Shown here piece by piece: positions 16,883 to 34,708 of a stretch of DNA of 41,423 nt; positions within the stretch are counted from its first letter, which is position 1; each line of letters begins with the position of its first letter. Source of the DNA: Natrinema pallidum DSM 3751 (GTDB taxonomy: Archaea > Halobacteriota > Halobacteria > Halobacteriales > Natrialbaceae); NCBI RefSeq assembly GCF_000337615.1, contig NZ_AOII01000014.1, forward strand, positions 1 through 41,423, read 5' to 3'. The notes beneath the pieces are model-generated. The model made no database searches and was not told the DNA's origin. It was given only the letters and a program-made list of their open reading frames with translations. The position numbers and the translations under genes are program-made.

Positions 16883-16912
16883 TTTGCAACCATATATATT
16901 TACTTGCTGCAC

Positions 16913-17155: not shown

Positions 17156-18526
17156 TCAGGCGGGGGGATCGGTCGATCCGCTCTCGAAGTCGCTATAGAT
17201 GTCCGAGAACGTTCCGTCGGGGTCGTTGTACAGCGCCCAGTAGGACACCAGTCCCATTCCGCGGTCCGCCGCGAAATCGACGATATTCCGGGCAACGTCG
17301 GGCGTAATCGACTCCTCGCTGACGTCCGGGGTGTTGCCGAGCATCGCCCAACACTCCGCGGTCGACTTGTCGGGATACGTCTCGTCGAGGAACGCGACGG
17401 TGCCCTCACACGCCGAGACGATCTTGTCGTACGTCGTCGGGCCCATCACCATCGTCATGATGTTGACGTACGCGAGGTCGACGCCCTTCTCGACGGCGTC
17501 GCGGACCCACGTTCTGGCCTGTGCGTGGCTCGAGTTCGCGATCCCGTTCTCGTCCGCCGGCACGGTGTAGCCCACCGTGACCTCGGGGCGCTCGTCCTGT
17601 AACAGCGCGAGAGCCTTGTTGCGCAGTTCGTAGATGGGCTGGTCGCGTCGGTGGGCGTTCTCGTCGTCGATGTCGATGTGCGTGACAGCGAGCGTATCGA
17701 GAACCGCCGCGTATGCGTCTTTCAGTTCCGTCGCGGAGTCGGCATCGCGGGCGATGGTTCGACCTTCCCAGCCGCCGATCGAGAGCCAGACCTCGATGCC
17801 TTCGTCCTGTAACGTCCGTATCTCCTGTTCGTACCTCGAGAGGGGCTGTTGATCACACGAGCCCTGATTACAGCCGGTCAGCCACCCGGGATTGATGTCG
17901 CCGTCGTCGGTCGCATCGCCGAGGAACGAGACGACGACGCGATCGGTATCGGCCGCGAGCGTGCCGTCGACGAGATCGCCCCAGGTGCCCTGGTACGGCG
18001 CGAACGCGCCGTCGACGGTGATCCCGTCCCGGCCGCCGACGTGGACCGTCGTCGCGGTCGAATCCGAGTCGCCGTCGGCAGTCTCGACGGCCAGTGTTAC
18101 CTCGTACTCGCCGTCGTCGTCGTAGGCGTGTGTCACGACGTCTCCCTCGGCGGTCGTGCCGTCGCCGAGGTCCCAGGTGTAGGCGGCGATTTCGCCGTCC
18201 GAGTCGGTGCCGTCGAACCGAACGTCCGCACCCGGATCGGGGGTGGCGTCGCTGACGGTGATCGACGCGGTCGGGCCGGGATCGTACGCTTTGATTTCAT
18301 CCCAGGGCCCCCATTCGCCGCCCTCGCCCGGTTCGTTGCCGCGGGTCCACCACTGGGCTTCCCAGACGGTGCTGTCGTGGACGACGCGGTCGCCGCTCGT
18401 GTACACGTCGTCGGGTTTCCATTCGGGGTACTCCTGTGCGGCCGCAGCGGTGCCGACCCCGACGCCCGCGACGATGGCGGACAGTGTCGATGCAGTACGC
18501 AGTACGTTTCGTCGTGATCGTTTCAT
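17156..18526 (-). CDS. GH18-type chitinase-like protein with CBM and PKD (atypical motif)
   Basis: A 456-residue Tat-exported protein (KRSRRNVLR, cleavage near AAAAQ). A CBM5/12-like module (about 32-77) and a PKD domain (about 84-164) precede a compact GH18-like domain (about 168-445) with SIGGWEG (249-255) and the active-site strand VTHIDIDDEN. Compared with DGIDIDWE, Asp285, Asp287 and the acid Glu289 are kept, but the first Asp is Thr282 and Trp is Asp288. SYWALYND near 428 matches the GH18 last strand. Only 9 bp separate it from the upstream chitinase, so they are co-transcribed. Likely a chitinase or chitobiosidase of a divergent GH18 group. Confidence 0.88.
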   Translation of the reverse strand: MKRSRRNVLRTASTLSAIVAGVGVGTAAAAQEYPEWKPDDVYTSGDRVVHDSTVWEAQWWTRGNEPGEGGEWGPWDEIKAYDPGPTASITVSDATPDPGADVRFDGTDSDGEIAAYTWDLGDGTTAEGDVVTHAYDDDGEYEVTLAVETADGDSDSTATTVHVGGRDGITVDGAFAPYQGTWGDLVDGTLAADTDRVVVSFLGDATDDGDINPGWLTGCNQGSCDQQPLSRYEQEIRTLQDEGIEVWLSIGGWEGRTIARDADSATELKDAYAAVLDTLAVTHIDIDDENAHRRDQPIYELRNKALALLQDERPEVTVGYTVPADENGIANSSHAQARTWVRDAVEKGVDLAYVNIMTMVMGPTTYDKIVSACEGTVAFLDETYPDKSTAECWAMLGNTPDVSEESITPDVARNIVDFAADRGMGLVSYWALYNDPDGTFSDIYSDFESGSTDPPA

Positions 18527-18535
18527 TGTCGTCGG

Positions 18536-20272
18536 TTAGATCGTCCGGAGGATCGTCTCCAGAAGCGTTTCGTTCCAGTCCTGGGAGAGTTCCCAGAACA
18601 TCACGCCACCCATGCCGCGCTCCTTGGCGAACTCGACTTTCGCCTCGATGGCTTGCTCGTCGTCGTAACTGATGAAAATCCCCTCCTCATCGTTGACGAG
18701 ATATGGAACGTCACCCATGTCGTGACGGCTGACCTCCCAGCCGGACTCGTCGCGCATGTTCTCCTCGATGTCGCCGAAGTCGAACGAGCCGGTCGGGTCC
18801 GCGCCGTCCTCGAGGAGGTGGTGCCAGGTTCCCTCGGGCAGTCCCGAGTACCGCGAGCCGAGTTCGGGCGACTGCCACTCGCCGACGGTAAAGCCGCGGC
18901 CGTAGAACGGCATCCCGAGCACGAGTTCGTCGTACTCGGCGGGGTCGGCGGGCGGATACTGCCACTGGTTGGGCCAGTAGCCCTCCTCGCCGTGATCGCC
19001 GGCCCACAGCTTGTCGACGGAGTACTCCGCCCAGTACTGTTCGCCGTCGGGGTAGACGTCGCGGTCGTTCGTCGGATGCGTGTCGGGACCGTACAGCGGC
19101 GCGTTCAGGCCGATCGTGGTCATCCACTCGCCGGTGAAGTCGTAGGCCATGACGTACACCGAGTCACAGACCTCGCCGATCCGATCGTGGCGAAGCCCGC
19201 CGGCGTTCCAGTCGGAGCCGCCGTTGGCGACCGACAGGTAGTAGTGCTGGCCGTCCTCCTCGCCCGCCTGATCGAGGTGGGTGCGCAGTTCCTCGAGCAA
19301 CAGGACGTGGTTCTCGTAGTCGTCGTCGTTGCCACACTGGCACTCGCCCTGTTGGGGACCGGGATGTTCCCAGTCGATGTCGATCCCGTCGAAGTTGTAC
19401 TGTCGCATCAGCTCGACGCAGTTCTCGGCGAAGGTCGTCCGCAGGTCGGGATCGGCCGCAACGATGTGGAAGTTCTCCGAGAGCGTCCAGCCCCCGATCG
19501 AGAGGTGGAACCGACAGTCGGCCTCGTCCGCCAGGTCGGCGAACTGCTCGAGGTTTTCCTCGTGTGTCTGGCGCGGTACGTCGAACTCCGTCTCGTCGTT
19601 TTCCGGCGGGAAGACGTTCCCGTTCTCATCGACCGCGATGAACGCGTACAGCATGTCGGTCACCTTGTCGAAGGGGACGTCGCTCGGGTAGTAGTCCTGC
19701 TCGGTGTTTGCCTTCCAGCCGGGGTAGTAGCCGACGACTTTGAACTCGTCGTCCGGCCCCTCGATCTCGTCCCGGACGGTGAGGTCCAGACGGGTGGTGT
19801 CGGTTTCGCCGTCGGCGTCGGTGACGGTCAGCTCGACGGTGTAGTCGCCCGTCTCGTCGTACGTGTGCGTGACGACCTCGCCGGTGGCTTCGGTCCCGTC
19901 GCCGAACGTCCACGCGTAGGAGTCGATCGCACCTGTCGACTCGCTCCCGTCGAACTCGACGGTCTCGCCGATCTCGATGCGGGACGCGCTCGCGGCGATG
20001 CGTGCGGACAGGGCCGGGGGCTCGGGCTCGGACGAGTCGACCTCGTCCCACGGTCCCCATTCGCCGCCGTCGCCCGGCTCGTCGCCGCGGGTCCACCACT
20101 GGGCTTCCCAGACGGAGCCGTCGTGGACGACTCGATCACCGCCCGTGTAGGCGGTGTCCGGGTCCCACTCCGGATACTCCTGGGCCGTCGCCACCGACCC
20201 CGCCCCGAGGCCGGCCAGTAGGGCGGATATTTTCGATGCTGTGCTCAGTACGTTTCGTCGTGATCGTTTCAT
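18536..20272 (-). CDS. GH18 chitinase with CBM and PKD domains
   Basis: A 578-residue secreted chitinase. Tat signal (KRSRRNVLS, cleavage near VATAQ), CBM5/12-like module at about 32-77, PKD at about 88-168, then a full GH18 barrel from about 177: VVGYYPGWKA, HLSIGGWTLS, FDGIDIDWEHPG with Asp295, Asp298, Asp300 and catalytic Glu302, VMAYDFTGEW, LGMPFYGRGF and GGVMFWELSQD. A chitinase insertion domain lies around 400-540. It hydrolyses chitin by the substrate-assisted retaining mechanism of the family. It is the middle gene of three in tandem (87 bp after the previous, 9 bp before the next). Confidence 0.96.
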   Translation of the reverse strand: MKRSRRNVLSTASKISALLAGLGAGSVATAQEYPEWDPDTAYTGGDRVVHDGSVWEAQWWTRGDEPGDGGEWGPWDEVDSSEPEPPALSARIAASASRIEIGETVEFDGSESTGAIDSYAWTFGDGTEATGEVVTHTYDETGDYTVELTVTDADGETDTTRLDLTVRDEIEGPDDEFKVVGYYPGWKANTEQDYYPSDVPFDKVTDMLYAFIAVDENGNVFPPENDETEFDVPRQTHEENLEQFADLADEADCRFHLSIGGWTLSENFHIVAADPDLRTTFAENCVELMRQYNFDGIDIDWEHPGPQQGECQCGNDDDYENHVLLLEELRTHLDQAGEEDGQHYYLSVANGGSDWNAGGLRHDRIGEVCDSVYVMAYDFTGEWMTTIGLNAPLYGPDTHPTNDRDVYPDGEQYWAEYSVDKLWAGDHGEEGYWPNQWQYPPADPAEYDELVLGMPFYGRGFTVGEWQSPELGSRYSGLPEGTWHHLLEDGADPTGSFDFGDIEENMRDESGWEVSRHDMGDVPYLVNDEEGIFISYDDEQAIEAKVEFAKERGMGGVMFWELSQDWNETLLETILRTI

Positions 20273-20359
20273 CGGTTGTGGGTATGTGTGTCGTTCGATC
20301 GGCAGTGCTGCTGCTCGAGCGGCTCCCCGGCCGTCGCGGCGCGGGCTCGCGACCGTCGG

Positions 20360-22162
20360 TTAGCCGTTGAGCGTCGTCCAGAGCGTCGTGATGAGATCGC
20401 CCTCGTAGGTGTCGCCGCTGATGGCCCATAGCATCGTCCCGCCGTAGGGTGAGTCCCTGAGCCAGTCCATCTTTGCTTCCATCGACTGCTCGGTTTCGTG
20501 GGAGATCATCGTCCGTTCCTCGGAGTTCCAGCTCCAGGCGGCGACCGCGTCCTCGTCGAAGTACGTCTCCCAGCCGGGGCCGTCGAGATCGACCGGGTTG
20601 CTCCCGCTCCGGCCGTCGGAGCCGAGGTCGAACCACTCCCAGACGCCCGCGTAGCTGGTCCCCATCGACGGGTCCCAGCTCGGGTACGATCCCTCGCCGC
20701 TGGCGTCTCGACCGTCGCCCTCGTACGTTTGGAAGAGACCGTCGTCCGTCCCGGTCCCGAAGTCACCCTCGGGCGGCTGGACGTCGGTCCAGCTCCGCCC
20801 GTAGAACGGGACCGCCATGTTGAGCTGATCGGGGTCCCAGCCCTGCTCGGCCCAGTACTCGAGGGCGAACTGGGCGTTCCAGCTGTCGGAGTCCGCGTAC
20901 GGGTCGTCGGGGTTCTCCTTCAGCGGCGCGTGATGGCCGGTCGTCTCGCTCCAGATACCCCGATAATCGAAGGTCATCACCTGGGCGAAATCGAGGATAT
21001 CCGAGAGTTCGTCGTGCTCGAGTCCGTCGTTGCCCGCGCTCTTCCCCTCAACGACTTCGGGGTTGGGGCTGACGGCGGCGGAGAGTTCGTAGGGCTCGTC
21101 GCGGTCGGGATCGCTTTCCGCAGCCGCGTCGAGTTGCTCGCGGACTTCCCGACACAGGAGCGTAAAGCGTTCCTGGTCGCCCTCGCGGACGCTGTTGTCG
21201 ACGTCACAGACGGGATCGTCCGCGGTACAGCCGCCGCCGCCGGGGAACTCCCAATCGATGTCGATCCCGTCGAGGTTCGCTTTCTCGACGAGATCGACAC
21301 AATTGCTGGCGAAGCGCTCTCGGTTCTCCTGGGTGAGCGCAGCGTCGGAGAAGTTCTCCGAGTCGCCCCAGCCACCGATCGAGAGGACGAACTTGGTGTC
21401 CTCCCGTTCGGCGGCGTATTCCGCGAACGTCTTGCCGCGGTCCGGCCCTTGCCAGTCCTTCTCGGCGTAGAACATCTGTTGCCCGTAGCTATCGCCCACG
21501 AGGTTAATGGAGCCGTCCGCCTCGGGCCGGGCGAACGCGTATTGGACGTGCGTGACCTTGTCGAAGGGGATGTCGCCCGGGACGTAGTCCCGGTCGTACT
21601 GGGCCCACTGCCGGTAGTACGCGATGACCCGGTTCTCGTCCGGGGACGGGCGGCCGGCGGTGATCGTGATCGAATGCGTGTCGGTCTTGCCGTCGGCGGT
21701 CTCGACCGTCAGCGTCACGTCGTACTGTCCCGTTTCGAACGCACGGGTGACGGTTTCGCCTGACGCGGTCGTGCCGTCGCCAAAGGCCCACTCGTAGGAC
21801 TCGATTTCACCCTCCGAATCGCTGGCGTCGAACGTGACTTCGGAGCCGGGATCGGGGAACTGCGTGCTGACCGAGAACTGCGCGGTCGGGCCGTCGTCGC
21901 CGCCATCGCCGTCGTCCCCGTCGTTTTCCTCGATCTGGTCCCACGGGCCCCACTCGTCGGCCCCGGGTTCGTCGCCGCGGGTCCACCACTGGGCCTCCCA
22001 GACGGAGCCGTCGTAAACGACCCGATCGCCGCTCGTGTAGACGGTCTCGGAGTCCCACTCGGGATGTTCTTGTGCCGCCGCCGCCGTGCTCGCACCGATG
22101 CTCGCCAGCAGCGCGGACAGTTTCGTCGCGTTCTTGAGTACGGTTCGTCGTGTTCGTTTCAT
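20360..22162 (-). CDS. GH18 chitinase with CBM and PKD domains
   Basis: A 600-residue secreted chitinase. I chose ATG 22162 because it gives MKRTRRTVL, like its paralogs; a start 12 codons upstream is unlikely. Tat signal with cleavage near AAAAQ, CBM5/12-like module about 33-76, PKD about 92-169, GH18 barrel from about 178 with VIAYYRQW, LSIGGWGDSENF, LDGIDIDWEFPGG (Asp298, Asp301, Asp303, catalytic Glu305), VMTFDYRGIW, VPFYGRSW and GTMLWAISGD. Two Cys (GCTADDPVCD, 311-319) next to the active site may form a disulfide. It is first in the minus-strand chitinase tandem. Confidence 0.96.
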   Translation of the reverse strand: MKRTRRTVLKNATKLSALLASIGASTAAAAQEHPEWDSETVYTSGDRVVYDGSVWEAQWWTRGDEPGADEWGPWDQIEENDGDDGDGGDDGPTAQFSVSTQFPDPGSEVTFDASDSEGEIESYEWAFGDGTTASGETVTRAFETGQYDVTLTVETADGKTDTHSITITAGRPSPDENRVIAYYRQWAQYDRDYVPGDIPFDKVTHVQYAFARPEADGSINLVGDSYGQQMFYAEKDWQGPDRGKTFAEYAAEREDTKFVLSIGGWGDSENFSDAALTQENRERFASNCVDLVEKANLDGIDIDWEFPGGGGCTADDPVCDVDNSVREGDQERFTLLCREVREQLDAAAESDPDRDEPYELSAAVSPNPEVVEGKSAGNDGLEHDELSDILDFAQVMTFDYRGIWSETTGHHAPLKENPDDPYADSDSWNAQFALEYWAEQGWDPDQLNMAVPFYGRSWTDVQPPEGDFGTGTDDGLFQTYEGDGRDASGEGSYPSWDPSMGTSYAGVWEWFDLGSDGRSGSNPVDLDGPGWETYFDEDAVAAWSWNSEERTMISHETEQSMEAKMDWLRDSPYGGTMLWAISGDTYEGDLITTLWTTLNG

Positions 22163-22379
22163 TGGTTTGGATTTCAGTATGGTCGTCGGACGTTGCAACT
22201 GGTCGCGATCCGTCGCGACCCGCCTAGTATTCTTTACTCGGCATATAAAATAATATCTTAATACTCGAGATAATATTTATCAGTTCACACTTTACAGTAC
22301 TATATATTTTACAGGAACGGATCGATTACAGGTCCCACTCTCGGGGCCACACGTTACCACGCTATAGTAGCGGCGACGG
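22163..22379. promoter_or_regulatory. AT-rich promoter region upstream of the chitinase tandem
   Basis: The stretch 22230-22312 is unusually AT-rich for this genome and has several TATA-like boxes on the minus strand. These are 65-150 nt from the chitinase ATG, so a longer leader than usual is possible. No gene seen. Confidence 0.45.
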
Positions 22380-23546
22380 TTACGCCGTCTCGACGTGGCT
22401 GTCGGCTTCGGAGAGCGAACTCGAGTCGATCGGTTCATCGCTGTGCTTGATCGACCGCCCGGACTCCGCGTCGAAGAGGTGCATCTTCGACGCCGGCACG
22501 TGCATGTGCAGGTGCCCGCCGGGATCGACGCCGACGTGACCGTCGACGGTAACCGTAATCGCCTCGCCACCGACGTCCAGATAGACGTTCGTGATGTCCC
22601 CCATCGGTTCGGTGACGGTCACATCCGTCTCGATCAACCGATTCGGTTCCGGGTGGGTCTCGGGGGTGTCGGTAAGCGACACGTGCTCCGGTCTGATACC
22701 GAGCACGAGGTCGGTGCTGTCGAGTTCGTCGGCCAGCGAGTCCGACAGCGGCAGCGTAAAGTCCGGATGGTCGAGCCTGCCGTCCTCGAGATCGGCGTCG
22801 ACGTCGAGGAAATTCATCGGTGGGGAGCCGATGAATCCCGCGACGAACTGGTTCGCCGGCCGGTGATAGCACTCGAGCGGCGTCCCCACCTGCTGTAACC
22901 GGCCGTCGTTGAGGATGACGATCCGGTCGCCCATCGTCATCGCCTCCGTCTGGTCGTGCGTGACGTACACCGTCGTTACGCCCAACTCGGTTTGCAGTTG
23001 CTGGAGTTCCGTCCGCATCTGTGCACGCAGTTTCGCGTCGAGGTTCGAGAGCGGTTCGTCCATCAAGAAGAGCTCCGGATCGCGGACGACCGCCCGCCCG
23101 AGCGCGACCCGCTGTTGTTGCCCGCCGGAGAGGTCGCCGGGTTTGTCGTCGAGGAGGTCGACAATATCCATCATTTCGGCGGCGGTTTCGACCTGGTCGT
23201 CGATTTCGGCGGCCGAGAGATCCGTCGACATCTTCAGCCCGAACGCGATGTTCTCCCGGGCGGTCATGTGCGGGTAGAGCGCGTAGTTCTGGAACACCAT
23301 CGCGATATCCCTGTCTTTGGGCTTTTCGTCCGTCACGGCGGTCCCGTCGAACCGTATCGCGCCGCTCGTGACCGTCTCGAGGCCGGCGATACAGCGGAGC
23401 GTCGTCGACTTACCACAGCCGGACGGCCCCACGAAGACGACGAACTCGCCGTCCTCGAGTTGGAGATCGAGCGACTCGACGGCTTGGATCGGTCCGTTCG
23501 GCGTACGGTACTCTTTGGTCAGACCATCTATGTCAATCCGGCCCAT
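22380..23546 (-). CDS. ABC sugar importer ATPase (MalK/UgpC/MsmK type)
   Basis: A 388-residue cytoplasmic ATPase. Walker A GPSGCGKST (40-48), Q-loop VFQNYALYPHM (84-94), signature LSGGQQQR (139-146), Walker B FLMDEP (160-165), H-loop His197, and a C-terminal TOBE/OB regulatory region (about 240-365) with LGIRPEH. This architecture is that of the carbohydrate importer family CUT1. It is separated from its permeases by the oppositely oriented GH3 gene and shares a 126-bp divergent promoter with it. A minus-strand TATA box at 23571-23580 fits a leaderless start. Substrate by context: chito-oligosaccharides. Confidence 0.95.
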   Translation of the reverse strand: MGRIDIDGLTKEYRTPNGPIQAVESLDLQLEDGEFVVFVGPSGCGKSTTLRCIAGLETVTSGAIRFDGTAVTDEKPKDRDIAMVFQNYALYPHMTARENIAFGLKMSTDLSAAEIDDQVETAAEMMDIVDLLDDKPGDLSGGQQQRVALGRAVVRDPELFLMDEPLSNLDAKLRAQMRTELQQLQTELGVTTVYVTHDQTEAMTMGDRIVILNDGRLQQVGTPLECYHRPANQFVAGFIGSPPMNFLDVDADLEDGRLDHPDFTLPLSDSLADELDSTDLVLGIRPEHVSLTDTPETHPEPNRLIETDVTVTEPMGDITNVYLDVGGEAITVTVDGHVGVDPGGHLHMHVPASKMHLFDAESGRSIKHSDEPIDSSSLSEADSHVETA

Positions 23547-23672: not shown

Positions 23673-25256
23673 ATGCTGACAGCAGACGGACGCGAGATGG
23701 ATCTCGCGACGAAAGTCGGCCAACTGTTCGTCGTCGGGTTCGACGGGACGGAGCCGACCGACGACCTTCGAACGTTGATCACCGACCGACAGTGTGGCAA
23801 CGTCGTCTACTTCGGTCGGAATATCGAGTCCCCCGACCAGGTCGCGACGCTAACCGACCGCCTCCGCCGACTGATACTCGAGGAGGGGGCGGGGGTCCCG
23901 CCGTTCGTGATGGCCGACCAGGAAGGCGGGGTGGTGTCTCGCCTCGGCTGGGGGACGACACTGCCGAGTCAGATGTGTCTCGGTGCGAGCGCCGACCCCG
24001 AACTCGCGCGGGCCGCCGGCGAGGCCGTCGCCGCCGAACTGGCGACCCTCGGTATCAACGTCAACCTGGCTCCGGTACTCGACGTCAACAACAACAACCC
24101 GCGCAATCCGGTGATCGGCGTCCGCTCGTTCGGCGAGGACCCCGACCTGGTGGGCGACCTCGGGGCCGAACTGGCGATGGGGATGCAAGCCAACGGGGTT
24201 GTCGCCTGCGGGAAACACTTCCCGGGCCACGGCGACACGAGTACCGACTCCCATCACGAACTGCCGGTCGTCGAGCACGACCGCGATCGACTCGCGGCCG
24301 TGGAGTTCGCGCCGTTCCGGCGCGCGATCGAAGCCGGTATCGACGCGATCATGACGACACACGTGTCGTTCCCGGCGATCGCGGACTCCCCGTCCACCCC
24401 GGCGACGGTGTCGCCTGCCGTCCAGCGCCGACTGCTCCGCGACGAACTCGGCTTCGGCGGGCTCATCGTGACCGACGGGATGGAAATGCGTGCCATCGCG
24501 GATACGATCGGCACCCCGGCGGGTTGTGTCCGAGCGCTCGAGGCGGGCTGTGATCTACTGCTCGTCTGTCACACGCCCGAGACTCAGGCGGCCGCGATCG
24601 ACGCCGTGATCGATGCGGTCGAATCGGGCCGGCTCGACGAGGCGAGGATCGACGCAGCCGTCGAGCGGATTCTGCGGTTCAAACGCCGCCGACTGGGGGC
24701 CTCGCGTCCGCCGTCAGCCGCTCGCTGGGCGGAGACGGCCGACCGGTCACGCGAGGTCGGCCGCGCGATCGCCGCTCGCGGGATCACGCTCGTCCGGGAC
24801 CGCGACGACACGCTGCCGTTGACGACCGAGCGGCCGCTTCACCTGATCGGCTCGTCGAGTGGCCGGTCGTCGCCGGCGGAGGACGACGAGTTCGAGCCGA
24901 CGCTGCTCGCCGACTCGCTCGCGGCCGCCGGGTTCGATGTCACCTGTCACGAGGTCGCTGACCGGTCCGACCTGCCGTCGGTCGAAGCCGGGACACAGGT
25001 AATCGCCACCGTCGACGGCGCGATGGCCGACGAGTCGCGGGCGGCCGTAGTCCGGACGCTCGACGACCGCAGACAACGGTTCGCGGCGGTAGTCGTTCGC
25101 AACCCCTACGACCTGTCGGCGGTTCCCGACGTCTCGACCGCGGTGTCGATGTACGATTACACGCGGGCGACGCGCACCGCGCTCGGCGAGGTTCTGCTCG
25201 GCGAGACGACGGCGACCGGTCGGCTGCCGGTCACCGTCCCCGAACTCGCGGACTGA
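23673..25256 (+). CDS. GH3 beta-N-acetylhexosaminidase (NagZ-like)
   Basis: A 527-residue enzyme without signal peptide, so cytoplasmic. The GH3 barrel has FVMADQEGGVVSRL (78-91), NLAPVLDVNNN, and the NagZ-type loop KHFPGHGDTSTDSH (181-194) carrying the Asp/His acid-base dyad, followed by the nucleophile Asp268 in VTDGMEMRA. A C-terminal alpha/beta domain (about 350-525) completes a two-domain GH3. It should release GlcNAc from imported chitobiose or longer oligomers, by hydrolysis or phosphorolysis. It is inserted opposite to the importer genes and divergent from the ATPase. The ATG at 23697 is an alternative start. Confidence 0.94.
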   Translation: MLTADGREMDLATKVGQLFVVGFDGTEPTDDLRTLITDRQCGNVVYFGRNIESPDQVATLTDRLRRLILEEGAGVPPFVMADQEGGVVSRLGWGTTLPSQMCLGASADPELARAAGEAVAAELATLGINVNLAPVLDVNNNNPRNPVIGVRSFGEDPDLVGDLGAELAMGMQANGVVACGKHFPGHGDTSTDSHHELPVVEHDRDRLAAVEFAPFRRAIEAGIDAIMTTHVSFPAIADSPSTPATVSPAVQRRLLRDELGFGGLIVTDGMEMRAIADTIGTPAGCVRALEAGCDLLLVCHTPETQAAAIDAVIDAVESGRLDEARIDAAVERILRFKRRRLGASRPPSAARWAETADRSREVGRAIAARGITLVRDRDDTLPLTTERPLHLIGSSSGRSSPAEDDEFEPTLLADSLAAAGFDVTCHEVADRSDLPSVEAGTQVIATVDGAMADESRAAVVRTLDDRRQRFAAVVVRNPYDLSAVPDVSTAVSMYDYTRATRTALGEVLLGETTATGRLPVTVPELAD

Positions 25257-25350: not shown

Positions 25351-26226
25351 CTATTGTTTCACACCGCCTTCCGTCAGCCCCTTCACGATCGGCTTCTGGA
25401 ATAGCACGAACAGCAGCAGAATCGGGACCGTCGCGACCGTCGATGCGGCCATCATCTCGCCCCAGTAGTTCTGGTCGCGTTCCATGAACTGCTGCATCCC
25501 GATCGAGAGCGGCGTCACGTCGCCTCTCGCCATGACCGACGCGAACAACACCTCGTTGAACGCGACCAGGAACACGAACATCCCCGTCGCGGCGATACCC
25601 GGCGCTGCAAGGGGTAAGACGATCCGGACCAGCGCCTGGAACCGAGTACAGCCGTCGACGCGGGCCGCTTCCTCGAGCGACGCGGGGATCGTGTCGAAAA
25701 AGCCCCGTAGCATCCAGATCGCGAACGGGACGGCGAACGTGGTGTAGACGAAGATGATCCCCTGATAGGTGTTGATAAGCTGGACCCCGACGGTGTCGTG
25801 GAACGTCCGGAACAGCATAAACATCGGCAACAGGATCAGGATTCCGGGGATCAGCTGCGTCCCGATGAGCGATGCGCCGACGTACCGCCGGCCCGGGAAC
25901 CGGTATCGCGAGAACGCGTATCCGCCGAGGCAGGCGATACAGAGCGCGATGACCGTCGTCACGCTCGCGATGATGAGGCTGTTCATGAAGTACTCGATCA
26001 GATCGACGCGAGACCACATGTCGATGTAGTTCTGGTAGTGAAGCGACGTCTCGGTGAAGCTCGGATCGCCACCGACGATCTCGAACCGGGTCCGGAAGCT
26101 GTTGAACACCATCCAGTAGATGGGGAACAGCGCCCAGATCAGGATCGTCAGTAAGAGCCCCTTGGAGGCGAGCGCGAACAGTCGGTCCGTGGTCGCTTCG
26201 GAGAGCGGCCACTCGTCGGGTATCAT
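25351..26226 (-). CDS. ABC sugar importer permease (MalG-like)
   Basis: A 291-residue inner permease with six predicted membrane segments (starting about 22, 83, 118, 153, 205 and 258) and the cytoplasmic EAA loop EEAARVDGCTRFQALVRIVLPLAAPG that docks to the ATPase. Its ATG overlaps the stop of the other permease by 4 nt (ATGA) and is preceded by a GGAGG at 26234-26238, a Shine-Dalgarno site inside the operon. Family BPD_transp_1, CUT1 type. Substrate by context: chito-oligosaccharides. Confidence 0.95.
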   Translation of the reverse strand: MIPDEWPLSEATTDRLFALASKGLLLTILIWALFPIYWMVFNSFRTRFEIVGGDPSFTETSLHYQNYIDMWSRVDLIEYFMNSLIIASVTTVIALCIACLGGYAFSRYRFPGRRYVGASLIGTQLIPGILILLPMFMLFRTFHDTVGVQLINTYQGIIFVYTTFAVPFAIWMLRGFFDTIPASLEEAARVDGCTRFQALVRIVLPLAAPGIAATGMFVFLVAFNEVLFASVMARGDVTPLSIGMQQFMERDQNYWGEMMAASTVATVPILLLFVLFQKPIVKGLTEGGVKQ

Positions 26227-27209
26227 TGGTCTTCCTCCTCGAGATCGCTTCGAATGAATCGACGGTAGTAGATCGTCGCGAGCACCATCGCGACGACGAA
26301 CAGTCCGACGCTCATTGCGGCCCCGCGGCCGAACGCGAACGCCCTGAACGAGAAGTTATAGATGTACACCATCGTCACCTCGACCGACGACGGTGGACTC
26401 CCGCCGAACATCACGTACGGCGTCGTAAAGTCGATCATCGTCCAGAGCAACATGAGCAAGACGACCACCCCGGAGACGGGTTTGAGCTGTGGCAACGTGA
26501 CGTACCGAAACTTGCCCCAGCGGCCGGCCCCGTCGATCGCAGCGGCCTCGTAGAGTTGCTGGGGAATGGACTGGAGGCCGGCATAGAGCATGATCATCAC
26601 CCAGGGGAACTGCAGCCAGACGTGTGCGATGGTCATCGACCACAGTGCCTGATCGCCGAGTAACCAGAACACGGGCTCGTCGATGAGTCCGACGGACATG
26701 AGCGCGTGATTGATGATGCCGGATTCCGAGAGGAACATCATTCGCCAGACGTTCAACGTCACGATCGCCGGTGCGATCCACGGCAGCAACAACAGCGTTC
26801 GAACGAAGAACGATCCCTTGAACTCCTGATTGAGGAGCAGCGCCGCCGTCAGCCCCAACACGTAGGTCCCGACGAGCACGCCGACCGACCAGAGCACGGT
26901 CCGCGAGATCGAGTACCAGTACCGACTCCCGATGGTCGTCGTGGGGTCCATCACGAAGGCGTAGTGCTCGAGGCCGACGAACGGTGCACTCGTCCAATCG
27001 GCGATGTAGTTCGAGTTGACCCCCATGACGCTGATCGTCGCTCCCCATACGACGGGGATGACGTGGACGACGAACATCATCGCCAGCGCGGGAAACAGAA
27101 GTTTGTATGCGTATTGGTGCTTCTCGTCGAGTCGATTGTACAACGGGAGATACCGTCCGATCCCCCCGTCGGTCACTCGCTCGTGTAACCGGGTGAAAGC
27201 GCGTGCCAT
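26223..27209 (-). CDS. ABC sugar importer permease (MalF-like)
   Basis: A 328-residue permease. A cytoplasmic N-terminal tail of about 35 residues is followed by membrane segments beginning near 36, 103, 135, 190, 235 and 292, and the EAA loop YEAAAIDGAGRWGKFRYVTLPQLKP. It is 51 bp downstream of the binding-protein gene and overlaps the next permease by 4 nt, so the three form one operon. Pairs with the MalG-like subunit to form the transmembrane pore. Confidence 0.95.
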   Translation of the reverse strand: MARAFTRLHERVTDGGIGRYLPLYNRLDEKHQYAYKLLFPALAMMFVVHVIPVVWGATISVMGVNSNYIADWTSAPFVGLEHYAFVMDPTTTIGSRYWYSISRTVLWSVGVLVGTYVLGLTAALLLNQEFKGSFFVRTLLLLPWIAPAIVTLNVWRMMFLSESGIINHALMSVGLIDEPVFWLLGDQALWSMTIAHVWLQFPWVMIMLYAGLQSIPQQLYEAAAIDGAGRWGKFRYVTLPQLKPVSGVVVLLMLLWTMIDFTTPYVMFGGSPPSSVEVTMVYIYNFSFRAFAFGRGAAMSVGLFVVAMVLATIYYRRFIRSDLEEEDQ

Positions 27210-27260
27210 AATGTCTTAGGTTTGTGAACCGTGATAATTCCTTCTCCCGACCTGAGGCAA

Positions 27261-28568
27261 TCAACCCTGTTGTGCCTGGTCGACGAGATCCTGTGCAACG
27301 CCGGCAGCCTCGTCGAGGAGTTCCGCGGAGCGTCCGTCCTCCCACTCGCCCGTGACGACCTCCTCGAGCCACGTCCCGATCGTGTTGGTGAGTTCGCGCT
27401 CGACTTCGCTCAGACCGGGGATCATCGGATAATGCCGCGCGTCGGGGAGCACATCGTCGTGGAGCGTCTGACTGAGTTCATCGTCGAACGCGTCATGGTC
27501 GAACGCCTCTTCGACCGTCGGCAGGAGTCCGATCCGATCGGCGAACGTCGCGTTGGCGTCCGGCCGTGAGAGCCACGAGATCCACTTGGCGGCCTCCTCC
27601 TGTTTGTCCGACCACGGTCGAATACCGAGCCCCTCCATGCCGAAGAACGTCGACCGGTCGCCGGACGGCCCGGCCGGGAGTCGGCCGATCGTAAAGTCGC
27701 TCCGATCCGCCCCACCCTGTTCGACGAACGGATCGACGGGACTCAAATCCTGCATGATCGCCCCGACGTCCTCGTTGATCAACGCCCCGTCGAACTCGTC
27801 GACCCCCCACTCGGCGACCTGGCTCGGCATGACGTCCTCCTCGAGAATGAGATCCTTCCAGAAGTTCAAGGCCTCGACGCCGGCGTCCGAATCGAACAGG
27901 ATCTCGTTCGTGTCCTCGTCCGCTACCCGACCGCCGTTTTGCCAGAGGAACGTGACGAACGCGCGCGGGAGTTCCCAACTGACGCCCATCATCGCATAGA
28001 GGTGTTTGTCCGGAAACGCCTCGCGGAACGCCTGCCCCTGGTCGACGAGGGCGTCCCAGTCGTCGGGCTGGCCATCAATCCCCGCTTGCTCGATGAGCGG
28101 GTCGTACTCGAGATAGCCACGCGGTCCCCAGAACCACGGAATGCCGTGAATCTGCCCCTGATAGTCCATGATGTCGGTGACTTGATCGAAAAACGCGTTC
28201 TGATCGGGGAGCGACGCGTCCAACTCCGAGAGATCGACCCACCCACCGGCGTTTGCCTGTTGTGGCAGGAACGTCGACGCGATGTGGTCGACGTCCGGCC
28301 CGACGCCGGACTGAATATCGGTTACCTGTGAATCCGGGACGTCGGCCCAGGTCAGGAACTCGTGTTCGACTTCGATTCCGGTCTCCGCTTCGAAGGCATC
28401 GGACTGCTCCTCGAGCCAGTCCGACTGAGATTCCTGGCCGATATAGCGTGCCCGAACCGCATCTCCGGCACCGCCGGAACCGGTGAACCCGTCCAAACAC
28501 CCCGCGAGTCCGAGTGTCGTCGTTACGCCAGCAGACTGCAGTAGCTTGCGTCGGGAGCGGTCGTTCAT
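27261..28568 (-). CDS. ABC sugar importer substrate-binding lipoprotein
   Basis: A 435-residue extracellular binding protein (SBP_bac_1 fold). Signal SRRKLLQSAGVTTTLGLAGC with lipid-modified Cys24, then a typical start of the mature domain with a WLEEQSDAFEAETGIEVEHEF element, IPWFWGPRGYLEYDPLI and LPAGPSGDRSTFFGMEGLGI. I chose ATG 28568 rather than the ATG at 28595: a TATATATA box at about 28604-28612 predicts a transcript start near 28582, between the two ATGs. Trp-rich patches suggest oligosaccharide binding. First gene of the importer operon. Confidence 0.93.
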   Translation of the reverse strand: MNDRSRRKLLQSAGVTTTLGLAGCLDGFTGSGGAGDAVRARYIGQESQSDWLEEQSDAFEAETGIEVEHEFLTWADVPDSQVTDIQSGVGPDVDHIASTFLPQQANAGGWVDLSELDASLPDQNAFFDQVTDIMDYQGQIHGIPWFWGPRGYLEYDPLIEQAGIDGQPDDWDALVDQGQAFREAFPDKHLYAMMGVSWELPRAFVTFLWQNGGRVADEDTNEILFDSDAGVEALNFWKDLILEEDVMPSQVAEWGVDEFDGALINEDVGAIMQDLSPVDPFVEQGGADRSDFTIGRLPAGPSGDRSTFFGMEGLGIRPWSDKQEEAAKWISWLSRPDANATFADRIGLLPTVEEAFDHDAFDDELSQTLHDDVLPDARHYPMIPGLSEVERELTNTIGTWLEEVVTGEWEDGRSAELLDEAAGVAQDLVDQAQQG

Positions 28569-28603
28569 CTCATTCGTACCCGAACTAATATTCATGCTAA
28601 TTG

Positions 28604-28810: not shown

Positions 28811-28821
28811 CGTTTATTACT
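28811..28821 (+). promoter_or_regulatory. TATA box of the enolase-superfamily gene
   Basis: GTTTATTACTA about 21-31 nt before ATG 28842, consistent with a leaderless transcript. Confidence 0.5.
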
Positions 28822-28841
28822 AACCGATTCGAACGGAACGT

Positions 28842-29993
28842 ATGAAACTGGTCGACTACGAACTGTTCCAAGTGCCGCCCCGATGGCTTTTCCTGAAACT
28901 CGAGACGGCGGACGGATCGATCGGTTGGGGCGAACCGATCGTCGAAGGGCGAGCGAAGACCGTCCGAACCGCCGTCGACGAGATCATGAACAGTTACCTC
29001 CTCGGAACGGACCCACACCGGATCGAGGACCACTGGCAAGCGATGTATCGGGGTAGTTTCTATCGCGGCGGACCCGTGTTGATGAGCGCCATCGCGGGCA
29101 TCGATCAAGCGCTGTGGGACCTCAAAGGGCGAACGTTCGACGCCCCGGTATACGAACTCCTGGGCGGGAAGTCACGCGACAGAATTCGGGTCTATCAGTG
29201 GATCGGCGGCGATCGAGCCGAGGAAATCGGTGCCGAAGCCGAGCAGTTGTGTGACGTCGGCTACACCGCGTTGAAGATGGACGCGGCGAACCAGATGCGA
29301 CACCTCGAGCCACCGGCCGTGGTAGACGAGGTCGTTTCGCGTGTCGAACACGTTCGTGAGACCGTGGGTCAAGGCGTCGATATCGTCGTCGACTTCCGGG
29401 GACGAATCTCCAAGTCGCTCGCGAAACGCATCGCGCCGAAACTCGAGCCGTTCGGTGTCACGTTCATCGAGGAACCGGTGTTGCCGGAGAACCTCGAGTG
29501 TTTGCCCACGCTCGCATCGCAGACCACGGTTCCGCTGGCGACGGGCGAACGGCTCTACTCGCGGTGGGATTTCAAGCCGCTGTTCGAACGAGGCGGGATC
29601 GATGTCGTCCAGCCGGACGTCTCCCATGCCGGCGGCATCTCCGAGATGGTTCGGATCGCGAACATGGCCGAGGCACACGACGTGGCAGTGGCCCCGAACT
29701 GTCCGCTCGGACCGATCGCGCTTGCGGCCTCGTTGCAAGTGAGCGCAACCGTTCCGAACCTCTTGTTCCAGGATCACGGGTTCGACATCTATCCCGCCCC
29801 GAAGAGCGCGGCCGACGACTACCTCGACGACGCCTCCGTCTTCGAGTTCACCGACGGCTATCTCGATCCGCTCGACGGACCCGGACTGGGTATCGAAATC
29901 GACGAGGACGCCGTTCGGGAGCGGTCCCAGCAGAACTTACACTGGCACAATCAGGTGTGGCGGCAGGCCGACGGGAGCATCACCGAGTGGTGA
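28842..29993 (+). CDS. Enolase-superfamily protein, galactonate-dehydratase-like, catalytic His replaced
   Basis: A 383-residue protein collinear with D-galactonate dehydratase (DgoD): VPPRWLFLKLET, WGEPIVEGRAKTV, MYRGSFYRGGPVLMSAIAGIDQALWDLKG, and a barrel with metal ligands Asp184, Glu210 (FIEEPV) and Glu236 (TGERL). The two catalytic His of DgoD are changed: DFHGR is DFRGR (Arg186) and APHCPLGP is APNCPLGP (Asn286). So it should bind Mg and a sugar acid, but its chemistry is likely different from DgoD. Candidates are a dehydratase for an amino-sugar acid or gluconate, or an epimerase. It lies between the chitin importer and the amino-sugar genes. Confidence 0.9.
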   Translation: MKLVDYELFQVPPRWLFLKLETADGSIGWGEPIVEGRAKTVRTAVDEIMNSYLLGTDPHRIEDHWQAMYRGSFYRGGPVLMSAIAGIDQALWDLKGRTFDAPVYELLGGKSRDRIRVYQWIGGDRAEEIGAEAEQLCDVGYTALKMDAANQMRHLEPPAVVDEVVSRVEHVRETVGQGVDIVVDFRGRISKSLAKRIAPKLEPFGVTFIEEPVLPENLECLPTLASQTTVPLATGERLYSRWDFKPLFERGGIDVVQPDVSHAGGISEMVRIANMAEAHDVAVAPNCPLGPIALAASLQVSATVPNLLFQDHGFDIYPAPKSAADDYLDDASVFEFTDGYLDPLDGPGLGIEIDEDAVRERSQQNLHWHNQVWRQADGSITEW

Positions 29994-30344: not shown

Positions 30345-31043
30345 TCACTCGAGATAGGCGCGCGTGGTTTCGTGAAACGGGCGGAATCCCTCGGCGCTGT
30401 CGACGCCGGTTTGTTTCCCTAGGACGGTGTTTTCGGCGGCTACGCCGTCCACGAGGTTGTCGAACTCCGCATCGATACCGCCGTGGGACTGGAGGAACTC
30501 CACCTGGGACTCGTGTTGTCTGATCGCATCGGCCTTGACCTCCTCGTAGCCGGTAATATCGACGTAGATCGACGGCTCGAATTCGGACGTGGGCTTCCCG
30601 AAGTAGTAGACGTTCTCCGGATCACAGGGGTCGGACGGCGTCTCGACGCGGGGCAACGACGCCATGTAGTAGGCGTCGGTGACGAGTCGCGACGTGACTC
30701 GGTGATCCGGGTGCATGTCGTCCCGATAGTGCGTGAGGATGACATCCGGCGCGAACGTTCGAATCGTCTCGACGATCGAGAGTCGGTTCTCGAGGGAGTA
30801 TTCGATGCGGCCGTCTTCGAACCCGAGGAACTCGACCTCGGCAGCACCGAGCGTCTCACCCGACCGACGCGCTTCGTCCTCGCGGACGGCGGCGATGTCG
30901 GTCGTCGACTCGAGTCCGCCGTACTCGCCGCTGGTAAGGTGGGCGATGGTAACCGTGTCGCCCCGGTCGGCGTGTTTCGCGAGCGTCCCACCGCAAAATA
31001 TGTCGGCATCGTCCGGATGCGCAACGATGGCTAATAGCTCCAT
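30345..31043 (-). CDS. PIG-L/LmbE family deacetylase (candidate GlcNAc or chitobiose deacetylase)
   Basis: A 232-residue zinc deacetylase with AHPDD (His9, Asp12) and HPDH (His114) as the metal site and GGTLAK after the first motif. In archaea this family includes Dac of Thermococcales, which removes the acetyl group from diacetylchitobiose and GlcNAc. Here it is flanked by an IclR regulator and by chitin and amino-sugar genes, and no NagA is present, so it is the likely deacetylation step. A minus-strand AATTATTATG near 31070-31079 is a suitable TATA box. Substrate (monomer or dimer) is open. Confidence 0.9.
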   Translation of the reverse strand: MELLAIVAHPDDADIFCGGTLAKHADRGDTVTIAHLTSGEYGGLESTTDIAAVREDEARRSGETLGAAEVEFLGFEDGRIEYSLENRLSIVETIRTFAPDVILTHYRDDMHPDHRVTSRLVTDAYYMASLPRVETPSDPCDPENVYYFGKPTSEFEPSIYVDITGYEEVKADAIRQHESQVEFLQSHGGIDAEFDNLVDGVAAENTVLGKQTGVDSAEGFRPFHETTRAYLE

Positions 31044-31122: not shown

Positions 31123-31884
31123 CTACTGCTCGGCAGCCGTCTCAGCAGTGAGGCTCGACCGCAGCAATCGGCTCGCACTGAAGAGAATCCCGGGGACGTT
31201 TTCCTCGAATCGCTTGCCGGAGAGTTCGTCGGCCCAGCCCGAGACGAAGATCGCGCCGGTCAGCGATTCGGTCGAGAGACCGACGGCAACGCTGTTGACG
31301 CGCGAAAACTGTTCCTGTCGGTCGAACGCGACCCCACGATCGCGGATTCGATCCAGCTCGGCACGTAACTCGGATTCGTCCGTAATCGTGTACTCGGTCC
31401 GCGCCGGCCGCCGATCCTCGAGCAGTGCCTCGAGCGCGTCAGTCGACTGCTCGGCGAGGATCGCTTTTCCGGCGGCGCTACAGTGACGGAATCGCGTGTT
31501 GTACGCCGGGAACCCGTGCTCGGCGTGAGTCGTGGAGAGATAGACGTCGACGACCCGCCCGTCGTGCTCGATCGCGAGCCCGGCCACTTCGTTCGTCATC
31601 TCGGCGAGTTCGTCGACCGGATCGACGGCTGCGTGCCGCAACTCGGTTCGGGAGCCGGTACGTACCCCGTAGTCGAGGAACTGAACGGACGGCAGATAGC
31701 GTCCGTCGGAGCGGTCGACGTATCCGAGTTCGTGTAGCGTCGACAGGTGCTTGGAAACGGTGCTTTTGCTGAGGTCCGTTCGATCGGCGATGGCCGTCAC
31801 ACCGATCGGCTCCCGCGAGTCGGCAACGATCTCGAGAATCGTTATCGACCGAACGGTGGCGTCGATCGTGGTATCAGTCCGCAT
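31123..31884 (-). CDS. IclR family transcriptional regulator
   Basis: A 253-residue regulator: N-terminal winged HTH (about 8-65, GVTAIADRTDLSKSTVSKHLSTLHELGYVDRSDGRYLPS) and a C-terminal effector domain (about 80-240, HCSAAGKAILAEQS, IRDRGVAFDRQEQFSRVNSVAVGL). IclR proteins usually sense sugar acids or aromatic acids. It is divergent from the SelA-like gene with 112 bp between starts, in which an inverted repeat overlaps the SelA-like TATA box. It has its own TATATAG at 31906-31912. It probably controls the amino-sugar genes and perhaps the whole chitin locus. Confidence 0.93.
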   Translation of the reverse strand: MRTDTTIDATVRSITILEIVADSREPIGVTAIADRTDLSKSTVSKHLSTLHELGYVDRSDGRYLPSVQFLDYGVRTGSRTELRHAAVDPVDELAEMTNEVAGLAIEHDGRVVDVYLSTTHAEHGFPAYNTRFRHCSAAGKAILAEQSTDALEALLEDRRPARTEYTITDESELRAELDRIRDRGVAFDRQEQFSRVNSVAVGLSTESLTGAIFVSGWADELSGKRFEENVPGILFSASRLLRSSLTAETAAEQ

Positions 31885-31996: not shown

Positions 31997-33211
31997 ATGA
32001 GTGATCAGACTGTCTACGACGAGTTAGGAGTGCCACGTGTAGTCAACGCCGCCGGGACGAAAACACGGATCGGTGGCAGCCGGATCCGGCCGGAAGCCGT
32101 CGAGGCGATGGGACGAGCAGCGACCGAGTTCGTCAGGCTCTCCGATCTCCAGGCGAAAGCGAGCGAGGTGATCGCCGACGCGACGGGAGCGGAGGCCGGC
32201 TACGTTACGTGCGGTGCGGATGCTGGACTGCTTCTCGCCGCGGCTGCGGCCCTGGCAGGGGACGATCCCGGAACGATGGACCGGTTACCGGATACCGACG
32301 GCATTCCGGACGAGATCATCATGCCACGGACACACAGAACCGGCTACGATCACGCGTTCCGGACGGCCGGGGCAACGATCGTCGATGTCGGCACGAACGA
32401 CCGCGTCCTCGGGACCGGATCGACCGCAGTCGAGCCCTGGGAGATCGAAGCCGCCATCTCCGAGCGGACGGCGGCGATCGGCTACGTCCAGAAACCGTAC
32501 ACCGAACCCGCCCTCCCGACGGTCACGGAAATCGCGTCCGCACACGACGTTCCGGTTATCGTCGACGCAGCTGCGGAACTGCCGCCGACGGAGAACCTCT
32601 CACGGTTCATCGAAGAGGGAGCGGATATCGTAGTCTTCAGCGGTGGGAAGGCGATTCGCGGCCCACAGACGACCGGCATCGTCGCCGGTCGGAGCGATCT
32701 CATCGAATCGATCGCGCTCCAACAGCTCGACATGCACGCTGCCGAGGAGGTCTGGCAACCGCCGTCACCGCTCGTCGACGGCGACCGTCTCGACGGCGTC
32801 CCACGACAGGGGATCGGCCGGCCGCTAAAAGTCGGCAAGGAGGAACTCGTCGGTCTTCTCGTCGCCCTCGAGTCGTTCCTCGAAGCCGATCACGACGCCA
32901 CGCGGGGCCGATGGCGGCGTGAGGCGGAGCGCATTATGGCCGCGCTCGAGTCCGTCGAGGGCATCGACCTGACGCTCGACGACGATGACGTGTCGGTCGC
33001 CCCGGAAGTCGTGGTCCACGTCGATACGACCGCGGCGGCGTGCTCCGCGACGCAACTCGTTCGAACGCTTCGGACGGACTCGCCGCGAGTGTTCGTCGGT
33101 GCGGACCGCCTCGACGAGGACATCGTCACGATCAACCCCATGTGTCTTACGGAGGCCGAACTGGACCACGTGATCGCTCGCATCCGGACGTCCCTGACTG
33201 CGACTCAGTAA
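31997..33211 (+). CDS. SelA/DgaE-like PLP enzyme, candidate D-glucosaminate ammonia-lyase
   Basis: A 404-residue fold-type I PLP enzyme. It has VVNAAGTKTRIGGS at the N-terminus, a PLP-binding Asp190 in VPVIVDAAAELPP, and the Schiff-base Lys218 in VVFSGGKAIRGPQTTG, a motif shared with the SelA family and especially the D-glucosaminate-6-phosphate ammonia-lyase group. No selenocysteine genes are nearby. Followed by RidA and a glucose-dehydrogenase-like enzyme, it is best read as removing ammonia and water from glucosaminate to give 2-keto-3-deoxygluconate. The unphosphorylated substrate is inferred from context; another amino acid lyase or racemase is possible. Confidence 0.85.
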   Translation: MSDQTVYDELGVPRVVNAAGTKTRIGGSRIRPEAVEAMGRAATEFVRLSDLQAKASEVIADATGAEAGYVTCGADAGLLLAAAAALAGDDPGTMDRLPDTDGIPDEIIMPRTHRTGYDHAFRTAGATIVDVGTNDRVLGTGSTAVEPWEIEAAISERTAAIGYVQKPYTEPALPTVTEIASAHDVPVIVDAAAELPPTENLSRFIEEGADIVVFSGGKAIRGPQTTGIVAGRSDLIESIALQQLDMHAAEEVWQPPSPLVDGDRLDGVPRQGIGRPLKVGKEELVGLLVALESFLEADHDATRGRWRREAERIMAALESVEGIDLTLDDDDVSVAPEVVVHVDTTAAACSATQLVRTLRTDSPRVFVGADRLDEDIVTINPMCLTEAELDHVIARIRTSLTATQ

Positions 33212-33269: not shown

Positions 33270-33650
33270 ATGAACGAAATTGCAACCGACGACGCACCCG
33301 CAAGTATCGGTCCGTTTTCCCAGGCGATCCGCGACGGCGACCGGCTGTACGTCTCCGGACAAGGGCCGGTCGATCCCGAATCGGGGGAGATCGTCGCCGA
33401 CGACATCGAGACACAGACGCATGCCGTCATGGAGAACCTCGAGACCGTTCTCGAGGCCGGACACAGCTCCCTCGACAACATCGTCAAATCGACGGTGTTC
33501 GTCACCGATATGGACGATTACGAGGCCGTCAACGCGGTGTACGAACAGTACGTAACCGACCCGTACCCCGCCCGGAGCGCCGTCGAGGTATCGGAGTTGC
33601 CGATCGATATCGGCGTCGAAATCGACGTGATCGCACGGGTCGACTCATGA
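33270..33650 (+). CDS. RidA family enamine/imine deaminase
   Basis: A 126-residue YjgF/YER057c/UK114-fold protein with GPFSQAI, LYVSGQGPVDPESGEI, the substrate-binding Arg102 in YPARSAVEVSELP and Glu117 in GVEIDVIA. RidA hydrolyses the reactive enamine or imine products of PLP lyases to keto acids and ammonia. It sits directly after a PLP lyase candidate and is coupled (ATGA, 4-nt overlap) to the dehydrogenase. That fits a dedicated role in finishing the ammonia-lyase reaction in this pathway. Confidence 0.93.
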   Translation: MNEIATDDAPASIGPFSQAIRDGDRLYVSGQGPVDPESGEIVADDIETQTHAVMENLETVLEAGHSSLDNIVKSTVFVTDMDDYEAVNAVYEQYVTDPYPARSAVEVSELPIDIGVEIDVIARVDS

Positions 33651-34708
33651 AAGCGATCGCCGTCGAACGCGGCGATTCCCGGCCGCGTCTGATAGACAAA
33701 CCACGTCCCGATCCCGACCCCGGCGACGCACTGGTCCGAACGCTCAGGGTCGGGATCGACGGAACCGATTTCGAGGTGATCGAGGGGACACACGGCGGGT
33801 TCCCCGCCGGGAGCGACCACCAGGTCCTCGGCCACGAAGCCGTCGGCGTCGTCGAAGACCCGAACGGGACCGATCTCGAGGCGGGGCAACTCGTCGTCCC
33901 GACCGTTCGCCGTCCACCGGGCGACGCGACCGAGTACTTCCGGCGCGGGGAGCCCGATATGGCACCGCCGGACGAGTGCCTCGAGCGAGGGATCGACGGC
34001 GCGCACGGGTACATGGCCGAGTACTTCACGAGTCCGGCGGCGTTCCTGGTCCCGATTCCCGACGCGTTCGCAACGACCGGGGTCCTAATCGAACCGATGA
34101 GCAATACGGAAAAGGCACTCGAGCACGCCTACGCATCGCGGTCGGCGTTCGATTGGCAGCGCGACGCGGCACTCGTGCTGGGGAACGGGCCACTCGGCCT
34201 GTTAACGCTGTCCAGATTGCAATCGGAGTTCGATCGGACGTATTGTCTCGGTCGACGCGACCGACCCGATCCGACGATCGACCTCATCGAACGATTGGGG
34301 GCGACCTACGTGGACTCGCGTGAGACTCCCGTCGCCGACGTTCCGGCGGTGTACGAGCCCATGGACCTCGTCTACGAGGCGACCGGATACGCGAGACACG
34401 CCTTCGATACGATCGATGCGCTCGACCAAAACGGCGTCGGCGTGTTGCTCGGGCTCCCGGGAGACGACGAGTTCGACGTTGCGGGCGGCCGACTCCACCG
34501 CAGGCTCGTCCTGGGGAACAGAGCGATCGTCGGCAGCGTCAACTCCCACATCGAACACTTCGAAGCCGCCTGTGAAACGCTCTCAGCGCTCCCCGACTGG
34601 TTCGGTGACGAACTGATCACGGACACGTTCGAACCGGCCGCGGTCGATGAGGCGTTCGAGGCGGCTCCGGATCGGATCAAGACCGTCATCGAGTTCGATT
34701 CACGCTGA
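33647..34708 (+). CDS. Glucose-dehydrogenase-type MDR enzyme (candidate glucosamine dehydrogenase)
   Basis: A 353-residue medium-chain dehydrogenase strikingly like haloarchaeal glucose dehydrogenase: RTLRVGIDGTDFEVIEGTHGGFP, VLGHEAVGVVEDPN, VVPTVRRPP, ALEHAYASRSAFDW and YCLGRRDRPDPTIDLIE. Zinc ligands Asp38, His63/Glu64 and Glu149 correspond to those known in the Haloferax enzyme; the nucleotide site has GNGPLG (179-184). It would oxidise an aldose at C1 to the lactone with NAD(P). Its position behind RidA and the PLP lyase suggests glucosamine rather than glucose as substrate. The frame is open upstream but the ATG overlapping the RidA stop is clear. Confidence 0.92.
   Translation: MKAIAVERGDSRPRLIDKPRPDPDPGDALVRTLRVGIDGTDFEVIEGTHGGFPAGSDHQVLGHEAVGVVEDPNGTDLEAGQLVVPTVRRPPGDATEYFRRGEPDMAPPDECLERGIDGAHGYMAEYFTSPAAFLVPIPDAFATTGVLIEPMSNTEKALEHAYASRSAFDWQRDAALVLGNGPLGLLTLSRLQSEFDRTYCLGRRDRPDPTIDLIERLGATYVDSRETPVADVPAVYEPMDLVYEATGYARHAFDTIDALDQNGVGVLLGLPGDDEFDVAGGRLHRRLVLGNRAIVGSVNSHIEHFEAACETLSALPDWFGDELITDTFEPAAVDEAFEAAPDRIKTVIEFDSR

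Follow-up and report, generated by a model that had tools for sequence, protein, structure and literature searches.

The locus studied here raises the question of what a protein does that is named galactonate dehydratase by its sequence profile, but has lost both catalytic histidines of that enzyme and is encoded among genes for chitin breakdown. The window, the whole analysed stretch of 41,423 nucleotides from Natrinema pallidum DSM 3751 (contig NZ_AOII01000014.1), contains an open reading frame coding for this protein of 383 amino acids (Table 1). Two mandelate racemase-like domains, PF02746 and PF13378, were identified by Pfam, and together with the structural model and its Foldseek matches they revealed the architecture of the enolase superfamily, with an N-terminal capping domain and a (beta/alpha)7-beta barrel. 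The NCBIfam profile PRK14017 for galactonate dehydratase was matched with 567 bits (cut-off 311), with other families scoring far lower. The best solved relative is DgoD from Ralstonia pickettii (3rr1), which was aligned to residues 5-383 with 420 bits and about 49% identity over the full length, in agreement with the near end-to-end likeness to DgoD claimed in a previous sequence-only reading. An AlphaFold2 model (pLDDT 88.6, pTM 0.90) has 3rr1 as its top structural match in Foldseek, with a TM value of 0.91. The next nearest group of the superfamily, D-mannonate dehydratase (ManD/RspA), has the same Mg site and is likewise a sugar-acid dehydratase; however, its profile was matched with only 250 bits, far under the cut-off of 550. 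ManD retains both histidines and uses an Arg147/Tyr159 pair.

For E. coli DgoD, His185 is said to be the acid and His285 the base, with Asp258 as the partner of the latter and Glu310 assisting, while Mg is reportedly bound by Asp183, Glu209 and Glu235. Glu310 acts as a transition-state stabiliser. In the Natrinema protein the corresponding columns are Arg186, Asn286, Asp259, Asp311 and the triad D184/E210/E236. The motif DFHGR of 3rr1 was found as DFRGR (residues 184-188), and APHCPLGP as APNCPLGP (residues 284-291). Both replacements, noted before from the sequence, were seen in the alignment with 3rr1 and recur in each of the 39 distinct members of a clade described below, and they do fall on the acid and base positions of DgoD. 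The three acidic Mg ligands, placed where strands 3-5 end, were kept as well, being invariant across the clade. Arg186 and Asn286 are each present in 39/39 sequences, Asp259 is replaced in 6/39, and Asp311 occurs in 39/39 where the His/His relatives have Glu in 63/63. A recognised general base, either the Lys of a KxK motif or a His-Asp dyad on strands 6/7, is absent, the protein having KxD, Asn286 and the variable Asp259. As judged from the alignments, all recognised non-metal catalytic positions of DgoD (His185, His285, Asp258 and Glu310) are replaced or unconstrained, and by its catalytic residues the protein would not be counted as a D-galactonate dehydratase, although it passes the profile. 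The divergence goes beyond what had been noted previously, in that E311D, N147D, E151Q and the lost constraint on Asp259 accompany the histidine exchanges. A takeover of catalysis by another histidine was rejected: His279 is Tyr or Phe in some members of the clade, and His262 is invariant in every group. Chance or a sequencing error behind Arg186 and Asn286 was rejected on the basis of 39 distinct sequences from many assemblies.

Table 1. Features of the window, in order of position, with the basis of each assignment.
Feature	Coordinates	Strand	Basis
Two GH18 chitinases with CBM5/12 and PKD domains, intact DGIDIDWE	18536..22198	-	
ABC transporter ATPase (MalK/UgpC type)	22380..23546	-	Pfam, NCBIfam
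GH3, beta-N-acetylhexosaminidase type	23673..25256	+	Pfam, NCBIfam
Two sugar ABC permeases and substrate-binding protein	25351..28595	-	Pfam
DgoD-like protein of the Arg186/Asn286 (RN) clade, 383 aa	28842..29993	+	Pfam, NCBIfam, 3rr1 alignment, clade alignment
Asp147 codon, at the end of barrel strand 2; Asn in 63/63 His/His relatives	29280..29282	+	alignment, model
Asp184 codon, Mg ligand, retained	29391..29393	+	clade alignment
Arg186 codon, replaces DgoD acid His185	29397..29399	+	alignment with 3rr1
Glu210 codon, Mg ligand, retained	29469..29471	+	clade alignment
Glu236 codon, Mg ligand, retained	29547..29549	+	clade alignment
Asp259 codon, dyad partner of lost base; D/V/A/N across clade	29616..29618	+	clade alignment
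Asn286 codon, replaces DgoD base His285	29697..29699	+	alignment with 3rr1
Asp311 codon, at the end of barrel strand 8; Glu in 63/63 His/His relatives	29772..29774	+	alignment, model
PIG-L (CE14-type) deacetylase	30345..31043	-	Pfam
IclR-family regulator	31123..31884	-	Pfam
DgaE-like PLP ammonia-lyase, constant partner of RN gene	31997..33211	+	profiles, PDB relative, linkage
RidA (imine/enamine deaminase type) protein	33270..33650	+	
Glucose-dehydrogenase-type oxidoreductase (GDH)	33647..34708	+	

A search across the class, covering 391 haloarchaeal genomes, and a collection of 84,980 species genomes supplied the relatives. Sorted by the residues at positions 186 and 286, they make up three groups: 39 distinct Arg/Asn sequences (designated RN), 63 with His/His and 4 with Arg/His. 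Lys145, Asp147, Asp184, Arg186, Glu210, Glu236, Asn286, Ser297 and Asp311 are invariant in the RN group. Compared to the His/His group, the exchanges H186R, H286N, N147D, E151Q, Y279H, C297S, E311D, S313G and L314F are specific for RN, and segment 318-323 in the strand-8 loop is rewritten. Most of these changes map in the model to the catalytic face, on or shortly after the C-terminal ends of strands 2, 3, 7 and 8. Six RN sequences have V, A or N in place of Asp259, which is invariant in the His/His enzymes; this drift is attributed to the loss of the base histidine, after which its partner is no longer held. The N-terminal capping motifs PPRW, WGEP and YRG..RGGP are identical across all groups; in the enolase superfamily, the capping domain reads the tail of the substrate.

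In a tree calculated by a quick method with the signature columns removed, in which L045 sits on a long branch, the RN group was monophyletic with an SH-aLRT value of 95. Every RN member found is haloarchaeal, and the bacterial relatives in the scan of the genome collection, which was made by exact query peptides, were all His/His and none RN. Among the relatives sampled, Arg/Asn marks a haloarchaeal clade, a question raised by the sequence-only reading. The dN/dS values among its members are 0.06-0.13, which shows that the protein is under purifying selection, and with intact reading frames as well, a pseudogene was rejected. The nearest canonical relatives are the haloarchaeal DgoD proteins (for example, Haloferax HVO_A0331 and Hlac_2866), which are about 60-64% identical but have His/His in all 63 sampled sequences. 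Several genomes carry a His/His DgoD alongside the RN protein. One such paralogue, L002, from the same genome as the RN protein, also has the KxD motif with Asp147, which weakened Asp147 as a candidate for a new base unique to the clade.

The Arg/His group, from Halohasta and Halobellus (L092, L103, L106, L113, 10001-11149), formed a separate clade in the same signature-free tree (SH-aLRT 100). It shares the DgoD profile and Arg186 with RN, but differs by having His286, Ala311, no link to DgaE and, in three of four members, Gln in place of the Mg ligand Glu236. This clade gives the impression of an enzyme that has decayed or been repurposed.

The substrate context of the clade was approached by its neighbourhood. 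The PLP protein encoded downstream in the window scored 213 bits with TIGR01437 (cut-off 385) and 203 bits with NF047797 (cut-off 600), and its closest solved relative is DgaE (7lc0); with scores under the cut-offs and this relative, it was named DgaE-like. A DNA pattern for APNCP(L/V)GP matched 37 of 391 haloarchaeal genomes, from 13 of 86 genera, while the reversed control pattern gave no match in the 391 genomes. The DgaE-like protein is present in 88/391 genomes and in 37/37 with the RN motif, for which the hypergeometric values, about 1e-27 for genomes and 4e-7 for genera, include kinship and are not true probabilities. Two further RN genomes (G360 and G182) came from the reading of neighbourhoods and were added to the 37. 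Both genes lie on the same contig, 1.5-10.4 kb apart, in all 38 testable cases, the 39th being split by contig ends. Among loci retrieved with up to 10 kb of flanking sequence, a DgaE-like gene was nearby in 13/13 for RN, in contrast to 0/63 for His/His and 0/4 for Arg/His. Only a DgaE-like and an IclR gene of the cluster accompany the RN gene in L043 and L044 (Halostagnicola and Halomicrobium). Because of this linkage and of these reduced clusters, the RN and the DgaE-like proteins are a core pair.

The converse does not hold, as DgaE is present in other settings, with no RN protein, in about 50 haloarchaeal genomes; a general requirement of the RN enzyme wherever DgaE occurs was rejected on this ground. 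A replacement of DgaE by the RN enzyme was rejected as well, since the two co-occur. DgaE-like genes without RN adjoin genes for heparinase II/III-like proteins or for KxK-type enolase-superfamily and GATase1-like proteins (L192, L198, L199; L187, L188, L209), and several haloarchaeal amino-sugar routes seem to share the ammonia-lyase.

A similar gene order was identified in Natrinema, Halopiger, Natrarchaeobius, Natrialba and Halobiforma, and a rearranged one in other families; GH18, RidA, GDH and PIG-L are found in most RN loci. The canonical haloarchaeal DgoD, in contrast, is encoded close to genes for beta-galactosidase and KDG kinase/aldolase (PMC3102087). The RN clade is tied to amino-sugar catabolism and not to galactose. 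The gene appears to be a functionally diverged DgoD paralogue of haloarchaea using chitin or amino sugars. Compared to DgoD from E. coli and R. pickettii (3rr1/3rra; PRK14017), the fold, the Mg ligands, Lys145 and the capping motifs are shared, while Arg186, Asn286, Asp311, Asp147 instead of Asn, the freed dyad Asp and the amino-sugar gene setting are different.

The RN protein is probably not a galactonate dehydratase but an Mg-dependent enzyme for an acid derived from an amino sugar. Binding of Mg would persist, as would that of a hexonic acid by its carboxylate end, with a tail much like that of the DgoD substrate, while the chemistry near C2 and C3 would be altered for a 2-amino or 2-acetamido sugar acid, such as D-glucosaminate or N-acetyl-D-glucosaminate. 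A glucosamine-derived acid has a similar tail and a different C2, which fits changes confined to the C1-C3 end of the site. The acid may be made from chitin by hydrolysis, deacetylation and oxidation by GDH; the DgaE-like ammonia-lyase would then convert glucosaminate to 2-keto-3-deoxygluconate and ammonia, and RidA would clear the enamine or imine of this reaction. A changed reaction in the RN enzyme is likely. For its type, abstraction of the alpha-proton with beta-elimination or epimerisation at C2 may be guessed, with the invariant polar residues Lys145, Asp147, Arg186 and Asp311 round the metal perhaps replacing the two histidines. It is tempting to regard Asp147, beside Arg186, as the new base; this is not firm, because the genome's own His/His paralogue has KxD as well. 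As a tentative proposal, the clade may represent a new enolase-superfamily activity, Mg-dependent and directed to a chitin-derived amino- or acetamido-hexonate, in which neither a catalytic His nor a Lys base is used and these four residues carry the proton. The earlier suggestion of a new reaction or an altered proton route on a sugar acid from chitin stands in part: the fixed exchange of the acid/base pair and the amino-sugar gene setting support it, and the new reaction, its substrate and the activity of the protein are presumptive.

Several observations count against an enzyme for an amino sugar acid, namely the missing recognised base, the genomes with DgaE only, Asp147 in L002, and a complete route: the conversion of GlcNAc via glucosamine and glucosaminate to 2-keto-3-deoxygluconate by deacetylase, GDH, DgaE and RidA seems to be complete without it. 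Possible substrates of the RN enzyme are the N-acetylated acid, an epimer and the lactone, or it could have no catalytic role. In the last case it would be a conserved pseudoenzyme, binding Mg and the sugar acid without turnover and serving as a scaffold, sensor or DgaE-like partner. The joint loss of both histidines, the dyad and Glu310 would agree with this, as would the complete route, and a strict linkage to one enzyme suits a partner protein too. However, the Mg ligands and Lys145 have remained invariant in all 39 sequences, unlike Glu236 in the Arg/His clade, and new invariant polar residues were gained in addition to the losses, which makes a pseudoenzyme unlikely. An epimeric substrate, a 2S acid of the mannosaminate type that loses its proton to the strand-2 side (Lys145/Asp147) and not to the side of His286, may be considered in view of mannonate dehydratase, which uses the strand-2 side. 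The lost His286 serves a single face of C2, Lys145 and Asp147 on strand 2 are invariant, and one locus group contains a gene of the GlcNAc 2-epimerase family (L177); but Asp147 is found in the His/His paralogue too, the link to a 2-epimerase is limited to few genomes, and mannosamine is otherwise unsupported, so that this substrate is rated as quite unlikely. An ordinary galactonate or gluconate dehydratase with another proton route, which simply moved into the chitin cluster, would explain the high DgoD profile score, the kept capping motifs and the fold match to 3rr1, but is very unlikely given the simultaneous loss of acid, base, dyad and Glu310, the amino-sugar gene set in 39/39 and the His/His DgoD present besides RN in several genomes.

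If the new activity proposed for the RN enzyme is true, it would be a so far unrecognised step of archaeal GlcNAc catabolism. The breakdown of GlcNAc in chitin-using haloarchaea is unsettled, and the RN protein is an enzyme of a conserved cluster without a proposed role. In a 2025 description of Natrarchaeobius, the same cluster is drawn with the RN gene as 'GAD' (galactonate dehydratase), which is given no place in the predicted GlcNAc pathway, a scheme described there as hypothetical and in need of testing (PMC12343721). Two strains of Natrarchaeobius chitinivorans sampled here are RN members (L037, L039). The altered active site is not mentioned in the passages of PMC12343721 considered or in the open-access literature searched. 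The clade shows that a profile can confidently name a galactonate dehydratase after all non-metal catalytic residues have changed, and its site, in a protein about 60-65% identical to canonical enzymes that are often co-resident, is a testable case of a barrel changing its proton route.

Some further observations were made on the neighbourhoods. A family of proteins of about 350 amino acids adjoins DgaE-like genes (L183 8494-9555, L184 10032-11066, L187 8775-9905, L188 10644-11669, L190 10880-12022 and L045 20020-21015) and, in L183 and L184 from two genomes, separates the RN gene from DgaE; Pfam and NCBIfam gave no match to the members tested, nor did the PDB sequences to the one member compared with them. 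In some RN clusters an additional SIS-domain protein similar to GlmS/GlmD (L174 13012-14019, also L181 and L182) or a protein of the GlcNAc 2-epimerase family (L177 4381-5832, also L180 and L200) is encoded; these are possible additional steps on GlcNAc. Upstream of the RN gene in the window, the sequence TTTATTA is located about 23-29 bases before the ATG (within 28813-28841) and could plausibly serve a near-leaderless transcript as its archaeal TATA box. Two secreted CBM5/12-PKD proteins accompany the chitinases, one with a weak GH18 match and no DxxDxDxE in that region (17156-18526, minus strand) and one with no GH18 domain (13469-15106, minus strand). Among the chitinases, a protease of the subtilisin family (S8) is encoded that has PKD and weakly matches CBM5/12 (15203-16912, minus strand); it perhaps serves in the use of protein-coated chitin.
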